From Desulfitobacterium metallireducens DSM 15288 (GTDB taxonomy: Bacteria > Bacillota > Desulfitobacteriia > Desulfitobacteriales > Desulfitobacteriaceae), in assembly GCF_000231405.2 (NCBI RefSeq), contig NZ_CP007032.1, positions 992,001 to 1,056,000 of the forward strand: a DNA stretch of 64,000 nt, given 5' to 3'. Of this stretch, positions 28,762-34,433 are shown one piece after another. The notes below the pieces were generated by a model. The model saw nothing but the letters and a program-made list of their open reading frames with translations, ran no database searches and was not told the DNA's origin. Every line of letters begins with the position of its first letter. Positions within the stretch are counted from its first letter, which is position 1. A program made the translations under genes and the position numbers.

Positions 28762-30225
28762 CTATTGATAGATCCACTCGACCCAATAGGCCAAAAAAAT
28801 GAGTGTAAATAAAAGAGATGGGGGGATAACTCGGAGCGTAACGCTGACATAATCCTTCCAGAGAAGTTTAATGTTGTGCTGTTTTAGAATGTTCAACCAC
28901 ATTAACGAAGCAAGAGTCCCAATTGGCAAGATTAAGGATCCCATGTCACTGCCAATTACACTGGCGAGATAAGCAATCTTCAGCGTGTAAGGATCGAGTT
29001 GCATGCTTGTTAAGGTTAGTGTTCCTATTAATAAAGCCGGATGATTGTTGAAAAATATCGACATTAGCGAGATGAGTGATCCCATGGCTAAACTGGCTTT
29101 GAAGAAGTCCCCATAAACTAACGGGTGGAAGACGTTTACTAACCAATGGGTTAAGCCGATGTTGTTTAAACCATAGATGATAACGTACATCCCGAAAGCA
29201 AAAACGAAGATGTGCCAGGGAGTCTTTTTCAATAAATCGGCTGGGGAGATTTTGAAAAATAACCATCGCCAACTGAGCAGGAGTAAGGAACCCATAACAG
29301 CAACCCACGAAATGGGGATTCCCAAATATGAACCTACAAAAAGGCTGATCCTCACAAAAAAGACAAAGAGAAGAATATTCCGCATAAAGGCGTTGCGGTC
29401 TTTTAGGTGAGGAGGTTGAAGCGTAGGGTGAGGTTGAGGGAGCAGGTGAGGAGGGACAGGATGATCTCCCGGAGTAGTATCATGGGGAGGATGTGGATGC
29501 GGAGGATGAGTTTGAAAAGGAAGGCGCCGCACCTTATGAAGAGGAGGTCCATTCAAGTACGTCTCGAAGAGTCCTGCTTTTAGCGTAGGTAATTTACGCG
29601 GTAATTGATGGTAAAAAAGAAGAAACAAAAGGGATAATAGAACGAGTAAGCCGAGGATCGCTGGGATAAACATCATTAAAGTATACATATACAATGTTGT
29701 TTCGACGATTTTTAAGGAGATCAAGTTAACAATATTGCTGACGCCGATGGGTGCGCTGGAGGCTGTGGCGATCAATGCCCCTGAGATGAGATAGGGAATT
29801 TTTTCGCTATTTTTAAAATGGAGTTTATCGAGAAGGATGAGCAGGATGGGGGTAGTAATCAAGATACTCCCGTCATTATTAAAGAAAAGCGTCATTAGAA
29901 AGCAAATTAAATTCACGTACCAGAAAAGACGGATTCCTGAACCGTTTGATCTAGCGGCTAAACCTTCAGCTGCCCAATAAAAGAATCCAAAGCTTTCTAA
30001 GACATTGGCCATCACGATCGTTGCAATGATTGTGATGGCAGCACTGCTGATTGTGGCGCCGATCGTGCCTAAATCTTCGAAGGATACACTTCCGCTAAGA
30101 ACGATTAAGAAAGCTCCAACGGTAGCAGGTATTGCTTCGTTTAACCCCCGCGGTCGCCAGATCACTAAAATCATGGTGAGCAAGAATGCCATGATCGTAA
30201 GAAAGGTCATGACTAATTCTGGCAT
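28762..30225 (-). CDS. ArsB/NhaD-like (IT superfamily) permease with His/Pro-rich central loop
   Basis: 487 residues, about 11-12 membrane helices in two halves, each with the superfamily's re-entrant motif: FFNNDGSILITTPILL in the first and FFNNHPALLIGTLTL in the second. ASSAPIGVSNIVN and GSDMGSLILPIGT are the following conserved segments. An oxyanion, arsenite or Na+ exchange role is possible. The central cytoplasmic loop, residues 240-273, has 8 His and 14 Pro in 34 residues, unlike relatives I know. TTTGGAGG start; a 53-residue membrane protein gene lies directly upstream. Confidence 0.85.
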   Translation of the reverse strand: MPELVMTFLTIMAFLLTMILVIWRPRGLNEAIPATVGAFLIVLSGSVSFEDLGTIGATISSAAITIIATIVMANVLESFGFFYWAAEGLAARSNGSGIRLFWYVNLICFLMTLFFNNDGSILITTPILLILLDKLHFKNSEKIPYLISGALIATASSAPIGVSNIVNLISLKIVETTLYMYTLMMFIPAILGLLVLLSLLFLLFYHQLPRKLPTLKAGLFETYLNGPPLHKVRRLPFQTHPPHPHPPHDTTPGDHPVPPHLLPQPHPTLQPPHLKDRNAFMRNILLFVFFVRISLFVGSYLGIPISWVAVMGSLLLLSWRWLFFKISPADLLKKTPWHIFVFAFGMYVIIYGLNNIGLTHWLVNVFHPLVYGDFFKASLAMGSLISLMSIFFNNHPALLIGTLTLTSMQLDPYTLKIAYLASVIGSDMGSLILPIGTLASLMWLNILKQHNIKLLWKDYVSVTLRVIPPSLLFTLIFLAYWVEWIYQ

Positions 30226-31592: not shown

Positions 31593-32435
31593 ATGAGCAA
31601 TATTCGAACTATTAATAAAATTATTACCGGGGAAAGGGCAACCGATGGTGCTGGCGTAAAGTTAGTCAGAGTTATTGGCTATGATGATACTCAAGATTTT
31701 GATCCCTTCTTGATGATGGATGCCTTTGATTCTGTTAATCCAAACGACTATACTAAAGGTTTCCCGTGGCATCCTCATCGAGGAATAGAAACAGTTACCT
31801 ATCTTATCAAAGGAGATATAGAACATGGGGATAACCTAGGGAACAAAGGAAGTATTCTTGATGGAGATTGTCAGTGGATGACAGCTGGTTCAGGAATTAT
31901 TCATCAAGAGATGCCGAAACGGAGTGAGTGGTTGTTTGGAGTTCAACTATGGCTTAATCTACCTGCTAAAGATAAAATGGTTTCACCACAGTATAGAGGA
32001 ATCCAAAAGCACGATATTCCTATCGTGGATGAGGAAGATTCCAAAGTCCATATTATAGCGGGAAACTATAAGGGAATACCAGGTGCACTGGAAGGAGATT
32101 ATGTTAAACCTCTCTATTTTGATGTAGAAGTAAAGAAAGATAGGGAATGGACTTTCGAAACGGAGGAAGATTCCACCTTATTCATTTATATTCTTCAAGG
32201 AGAAGGTTTCTTTGATCCCCAGAATGAAGCGTTTATTTCGGAAAAGCATGCGGTCCTATTTAATAAAGGAAAAGATTTCCGAGTAAAAGCTTCAAATCAA
32301 GGAATTCGGTTCTTACTTTTATCCGGGAAACCACTCAAAGAGCCTATTGCCTGGGGTGGTCCAATCGTGATGAACACAAGAGAAGAGCTGGATCTTGCGT
32401 TCAAAGAACTCAATGAGAATAAATTCGTCAAATAA
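31593..32435 (+). CDS. pirin family protein
   Basis: 280 residues, two cupin domains. Metal-binding histidines in HPHRGIETVTYLIKGDIEH and the following GSGIIHQEMP motif are intact. Some bacterial pirins act as quercetinases or bind redox enzymes; role here unknown. AAGGAGG start, own promoter, strong terminator. Confidence 0.92.
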   Translation: MSNIRTINKIITGERATDGAGVKLVRVIGYDDTQDFDPFLMMDAFDSVNPNDYTKGFPWHPHRGIETVTYLIKGDIEHGDNLGNKGSILDGDCQWMTAGSGIIHQEMPKRSEWLFGVQLWLNLPAKDKMVSPQYRGIQKHDIPIVDEEDSKVHIIAGNYKGIPGALEGDYVKPLYFDVEVKKDREWTFETEEDSTLFIYILQGEGFFDPQNEAFISEKHAVLFNKGKDFRVKASNQGIRFLLLSGKPLKEPIAWGGPIVMNTREELDLAFKELNENKFVK

Positions 32436-32901: not shown

Positions 32902-34056
32902 TTAGGATAAAGCATCATGAATTATCACTTTTTTTAACGTTAAATAAATTACTGCAACAAGAATAAAGACCATAATCGTCGGTGAGCCCCATTCGACATT
33001 GACGAAGTATTGATAAAGGAATGTTCCAAAAGCCGCGATGAGGATGCCTAACGTATTGAGCTTTGAGCTCTGCCCTTTATAATGGGTAAGATACTCGATA
33101 AAGACGATCGTGTAGACTGGAATGAAGACACTGCCGATCATCAGTAGAAAGCTTTCGAAGTTTTCGATCGGGAAGACAAAAGCAATCATAAGAGAAATTA
33201 ACGAATAAAGGACAATCATTAGATTTTCGTTTTTAAATGGAAAGAGTTGTTTAGAGGAAATGACAGCCGAATAAATATCCATAAAAGCAGTTGTCACCGT
33301 AGCAATGATGATGATAAAGCCAGCGATAAACTTCATATTGCTCTGCACGATATATTCGATAACATCCATCCCCGTATGGAGAGTAATGAGGAAGCCTAGA
33401 AGATACATAAGCATACTGCCGATAAAGTAGCCGATGAAGCTGGAGAGAACGACCCCTCTTTTGCTTTGCCCATTTTTAGTGTAATCTCCAATGAGTGGTA
33501 GCCAGGAAATAGGCATGGCAATGGAGAGTTCCACCGCAGTCGCAAAATTCATCTGTCCAGTTATTGGAGGGAGGGATTGCATATCAATGCGGAAAAAGAT
33601 CATGACGCTCAGGACAAGCAGAATAAGGACAAAAATATCATTGAGGGCTTTGGAATAGTTATTAAAGAAAAAGGCCCAGATTAAGACGGCAAAGCCCATT
33701 ATAATCATGGAGACCGGTAAAGATAGATTAGCGATTCCGCCAAAGGCTCTTCCCGCTTGGATAATCATGACTGTACCCCAACCAATGAGTTGGAGAACAT
33801 TTAGGAAAGCAATAACTTTTACTCCTACTGGCCCCAGGGAGTCGCGGACTTTTTCCATGGCTGTTTTACCGCTTTGAAAAGAGATATAACCGCCAAATGC
33901 CAGAAGCAAAGTGCCAATCAGGTGTCCGATAAGAATAGCAGCTAAGCCTTTCGCCAGTCCTAATGGAGCGGTTAGCCCCCCGGTATAAATTTCAGAAATT
34001 GAAATGGCTGCTCCAGCCCATAAAAGAAACATTGATGAATTCTTAATCTTCTCCAT
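32902..34056 (-). CDS. YkvI-type permease under thiamine riboswitch control
   Basis: 384 residues, about 10-11 membrane helices, with the LeuT-fold look of the YkvI group (SMFLLWAGAAISISEIYTGG at the start, helix 1 broken by SEIYTGG; SIAMPISWLPLIGDYTKNG near the middle). ATG with AAAGGGTTG upstream. The leader on the same strand carries a TPP riboswitch and a terminator, so the gene should be expressed when thiamine is short. That makes uptake of thiamine or its precursor HMP the likely job (inference from regulation, not from the protein). Confidence 0.85.
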   Translation of the reverse strand: MEKIKNSSMFLLWAGAAISISEIYTGGLTAPLGLAKGLAAILIGHLIGTLLLAFGGYISFQSGKTAMEKVRDSLGPVGVKVIAFLNVLQLIGWGTVMIIQAGRAFGGIANLSLPVSMIIMGFAVLIWAFFFNNYSKALNDIFVLILLVLSVMIFFRIDMQSLPPITGQMNFATAVELSIAMPISWLPLIGDYTKNGQSKRGVVLSSFIGYFIGSMLMYLLGFLITLHTGMDVIEYIVQSNMKFIAGFIIIIATVTTAFMDIYSAVISSKQLFPFKNENLMIVLYSLISLMIAFVFPIENFESFLLMIGSVFIPVYTIVFIEYLTHYKGQSSKLNTLGILIAAFGTFLYQYFVNVEWGSPTIMVFILVAVIYLTLKKVIIHDALS

Positions 34057-34189: not shown

Positions 34190-34214
34190 AAAAGACTTAC
34201 CCGAGGGGTAAGCC
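34190..34214 (-). terminator. terminator of the TPP riboswitch
   Basis: On the minus strand CTTACCC (34206-34212) pairs with GGGTAAG (34196-34202), followed by TCTTTTTATTTT. Located between aptamer and gene, as expected for an attenuator. Confidence 0.75.
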
Positions 34215-34236
34215 TATTCCTATCTTTGAAATCCAC

Positions 34237-34340
34237 ATTTACGCGGACAGTCTTCAGCATCCCTACGCTGGTGTTAACCAGATCAGGTTCTAAGGGTTAA
34301 GATGATTCTTTCTCAGCTCCCGACGGAGCACCCCCTGCAC
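34237..34340 (-). ncRNA. TPP riboswitch (THI element)
   Basis: Minus strand reads GGGGGTGCTCC, GCTGAGA, ACCCTTAGAACCTGATCTGG, TTAACACCAGCGTAGGGA. These are the conserved THI-box segments in order (CUGAGA, ACCUGAUCUGG, GCGUAGGGA). The remaining bases of the 34057-34433 spacer hold the attenuator and no gene. Confidence 0.95.
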
Positions 34341-34433
34341 TATTCAATTATATAGAACTCTGAGGAAAATTATAAGTCTCTTTTTGATGATTGTAAATAG
34401 GTGATTTACGATAACGTTATATTCTAACCATTC

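Follow-up and report, generated by a model that had tools for sequence, protein, structure and literature searches.

CytX is a long-predicted importer of hydroxymethylpyrimidine (HMP), the pyrimidine precursor of thiamine, and is often TPP-controlled; the name reportedly goes back to the comparative-genomics prediction of Rodionov and colleagues in 2002. The role of CytX as an HMP importer has been predicted from gene clusters (PMC5874261), and an HMP importer predicted by comparative genomics is attributed to Rodionov et al. 2002 where that work is cited in PMC3766115. In Neisseria meningitidis the leader of cytX is repressed by thiamine in a reporter (PMC7237195), and the specificity of a SAR11 CytX homologue is left open by PMC11452348. 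Our literature search turned up no study in which transport by a bacterial CytX was measured directly.

The locus described here lies in a window of 64 kb, the whole stretch of DNA that was analysed, which forms part of a complete 3.18-Mb genome (G000). It very probably represents a transcription unit of one gene, coding for a CytX-type (NCS1) HMP importer and controlled by a TPP riboswitch. Along the minus strand from 34400 to 32900 a promoter-like site, the TPP aptamer, a terminator, a ribosome-binding site and a gene of 384 codons follow one another. The next gene downstream encodes a pirin (31593-32435) and is found on the opposite strand, so that cytX stands as a unit of its own. The features are as follows.

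34369..34397, minus strand: candidate sigma-70 promoter TTTACA-17-TATAAT, with 11 of 12 consensus bases.
34243..34345, minus strand: TPP riboswitch aptamer (THI element), matching RF00059 at full length with 73.5 bits.
34330..34335, minus strand: P2 5' strand GGGGGU of the aptamer, the candidate upper antiterminator strand (predicted alternative pairing).
34193..34215, minus strand: intrinsic terminator AGGCTTACCC-CTC-GGGTAAGTCT followed by TTTTATTTTC; 10 pairs, a loop of 3 and a T-rich tail.
32902..34056, minus strand: cytX, NCS1-family permease of 384 aa and putative HMP importer (TIGR02358, PF02133, CodB structure 7qoa).

A cmscan search of the whole window returned a single Rfam match, the aptamer at 34345-34243 (E 1.4e-12, against a gathering threshold for RF00059 of 54.3 bits), in which all 105 model positions (1-105) are matched; a genome-wide search gave the same match. 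This bears out the TPP riboswitch claimed in an earlier note on this DNA. The attenuator named there is likewise supported by the terminator at 34215-34193, which has a 10-bp stem and is present in the computed minimum-energy fold of the leader, a fold that is more stable than those of shuffled sequences (z -2.36). The span then assigned to the two elements, 34190-34340, covers both aptamer and terminator but was given no strand, and all of these features lie on the minus strand. The candidate promoter ends 23 nt upstream of the aptamer, in a region where promoter-like sites show no excess (4 observed, 4.4 expected by chance). Elsewhere in the genome a weak TPP-like element of 48.2 bits, below the cut-off, is found at L036:5403-5511 (G000:C1:492402-492510), outside the window; no gene of appreciable length follows it closely on the same strand, and it is possibly an orphan or decayed riboswitch.

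The arrangement of the leader is likely to represent transcription attenuation in which binding of TPP allows the terminator to form. Single-sequence folding of a transcript stopping just before the 3' arm of the terminator predicts that GGGGGU (34335-34330) pairs with ACCCCU (34209-34204) with a probability of 0.64-0.73. From this we infer both the antiterminator and the direction of control. When TPP is low, the P2 5' strand of the aptamer would pair with the ACCCCU stretch in the terminator's 5' arm and loop, and RNA polymerase would read through into cytX. When TPP is ample, the bound aptamer would hold P2 closed, allowing the terminator to form and switching cytX off.

The permease gene begins with an ATG at 34056, preceded by the ribosome-binding site AGAAAGGG. 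Its product passes the NCBIfam model TIGR02358 ('putative hydroxymethylpyrimidine transporter CytX') with 332.9 bits against a cut-off of 309.85, and it also matches Pfam PF02133 (NCS1; 58.6 bits, cut-off 23.5), the scope of which takes in permeases for cytosine, purines, uracil, thiamine and allantoin. On these model matches the protein is assigned to the CytX family, of which it is a divergent new member, the family itself being already named; the sequence families are enough to show which class of fold it has. A second permease in the window, an ArsB-like protein at 28762-30225 (minus strand), contains a proline/histidine-rich stretch in its middle (HPPHPHPPHDTTPGDHPVPPHLLPQPHPTLQPPHL) that splits the ArsB match in two; none of the other reading frames at this break is ArsB-like.

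A survey of 61 genomes, consisting of this genome and 60 relatives, identified CytX above the cut-off in 22. The earlier note had proposed looking for THI elements ahead of YkvI-like genes; applied to CytX, which is the family concerned rather than YkvI, such a survey shows that 17 of the 21 relatives' genes have a TPP aptamer in the flanking sequence retrieved. All but one of these 21 adjoin thiD, thiM or thiE, mostly in the order thiD-cytX-thiM-thiE, and no aptamer was found at any of the seven below-cut-off NCS1 paralogues examined. A public genome collection, in which relatives were found by an alignment-based search (a single-sequence search returned none), gave a TPP aptamer at 16 of 20 CytX loci scanned and, at 70 of 80, a thi gene no more than about 2.5 kb away. 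A search of plasmids for CytX relatives yielded distant matches only, with Neisseria cytX at 33%. ThiC, the HMP synthase, is kept in 17 of the 21 CytX-bearing relatives; in this group, therefore, CytX does not go hand in hand with HMP auxotrophy.

In the genome under study no match to ThiC was found with either TIGR00190 or PF01964 at E <= 10, and each of these models finds ThiC in 13 of 14 control genomes. The genome does contain a thiD-thiM-thiE operon, coding for enzymes of HMP and thiazole salvage, behind a separate TPP riboswitch at G000:C1:607.6-610.1 kb; this operon lacks cytX. A profile search found no ThiT above the cut-off in the genome, a ThiT-like match of 15.5 bits being rejected as it is below the cut-off and falls inside a neighbouring GGDEF/EAL gene. 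The genome search for ThiG gave no convincing match: those obtained were short, partial and weak and were rejected, and the best two fall in 295-320-aa reading frames that probably encode TIM barrels of another kind. Taken together, the missing ThiC, the weak ThiG matches, the lack of a ThiT above the cut-off and the salvage operon make the genome look dependent on an external supply of either HMP plus thiazole or thiamine. HMP taken up by CytX would be phosphorylated by ThiD and then joined by ThiE to the product of ThiM, the enzymes being supplied by the separate TPP-controlled operon.

Elsewhere in the genome, outside the window, a divergent TPP riboswitch (56.4 bits) and a terminator-like hairpin are followed by four genes (L035:7233-12379; G000:C1:610.2-615.4 kb). 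These encode a LuxE-like acyl ligase (PF04443), a LuxC acyl-CoA reductase (PF05893), a short-chain dehydrogenase and a 517-aa fusion of an AIR-synthase/ThiL-like domain with ThiN. As a speculation, such a set would perform a carboxylate-to-alcohol reduction under TPP control, which would fit the reduction of an oxidized thiamine or thiazole (acetate form back to hydroxyethyl). Among the papers listed, titles and abstracts contained nothing relevant on a link between luxE, luxC and thiamine, and this operon looks more novel than the cytX locus. The only other full-length copy of the fusion among the 61 genomes, 81% identical, is found in a relative directly behind its own TPP riboswitch with no luxE or luxC between (L077:6181-7953; G017:C10). 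No ThiL scores above the cut-off in the genome (G000:C1:613918-614784 and 2465396-2466097, outside the window), and the best match is the AIRS half of the fusion (98.7 bits, cut-off 184); the fusion may therefore supply the last step to TPP. A further AIR-synthase-type frame, at G000:C1:898303-899100 and also outside the window, contains one in-frame TGA and is probably a selenocysteine-containing SelD.

The CytX of the window is 37-41% identical to the CytX proteins of relatives from its own family and order; for the salvage enzymes, identity to the copies of Desulfosporosinus-like relatives is ~76-80% (ThiD), ~66-71% (ThiM) and ~63-70% (ThiE). The nearest CytX proteins found, two at 54% identity, come from metagenome-assembled genomes labelled Clostridium sp. 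and Bacillota, and both are encoded within TPP-thiD-cytX-thiM-thiE operons. The simplest reading of these comparisons is that the cytX of the operon was lost and its role taken over by another copy, diverged and probably acquired, that has a riboswitch to itself. Given this divergence, and a score only 23 bits over the TIGR02358 cut-off, the substrate could have shifted. It is possible, though unlikely, that the divergent protein, uncoupled from the salvage operon and under its own riboswitch, carries a B1 vitamer other than HMP, either thiamine or a pyrimidine arising from breakdown, for example amino-HMP.

Import of thiamine itself, or of thiamine together with HMP, would let the permease replace the absent ThiT-type transporter. 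The inclusion of thiamine permeases in PF02133 and the distance of this protein from other CytX proteins are both in keeping with such a role. We nevertheless consider it quite improbable, as the nearest relatives and most CytX genes sit with thiD, thiM and thiE, which handle HMP and thiazole and not thiamine, and CytX is found in genomes without ThiC (PMC5874261). The earlier suggestion of a likely thiamine or HMP importer is supported, with the CytX family and the salvage-gene context favouring HMP, which by inference is the most likely substrate; uptake is presumably cation-coupled.

A cytosine or purine permease of the ordinary kind, placed behind a TPP riboswitch by chance, would account for the weak matches to the cytosine permease model (54.8 bits) and to CodB, but that score is far under the cut-off of 326 whereas the CytX cut-off is exceeded, and TPP aptamers were found beside CytX genes but beside none of the NCS1 paralogues examined, making this explanation very improbable. 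That the permease is of YkvI type, a poorly defined group to which the riboswitch would then give a substrate, is scarcely credible: YkvI-type and CytX/NCS1 permeases are all membrane proteins and are thought to have a LeuT-type fold in common, but no YkvI-type family (COG3949) appears among the curated or Pfam matches of the protein, all of which are NCS1 families, with CytX the best of the curated ones. Since the CytX and NCS1 models are passed, no substrate can be assigned to YkvI from this locus and the novelty once claimed for it falls away; the family assignment is corrected and a false lead removed.

The HMP importer preferred here adds a clean case from this group: in a genome without a detectable ThiC, a diverged cytX is located away from the salvage operon and is likely to have a transcriptional TPP switch of its own. 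It would also lend itself well to measuring transport by a bacterial CytX directly. Compared with known systems, CodB (7qoa) is the only solved relative by sequence and belongs to the same superfamily, but the match over 312 residues has an E value of only 1.3e-5. The Arabidopsis protein PLUTO is an NCS1 homologue of CytX with reported HMP transport; unlike CytX it is a plastid protein, 23% identical to a Pyrococcus CytX, and it also transports nucleobases (PMC5874261). The TPP-cytX-thiO-thiE operon of N. meningitidis similarly places a TPP riboswitch directly before cytX, although there cytX is first in an operon with a proposed translational platform (PMC7237195), whereas here a clear terminator precedes a single gene. 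The locus resembles the CytX family as defined by TIGR02358 in exceeding its curated cut-off, in being under TPP control and in belonging to a genome equipped for HMP and thiazole salvage; the cytX of most relatives is found inside thiD-cytX-thiM-thiE, whereas that of the window stands alone behind its own riboswitch.
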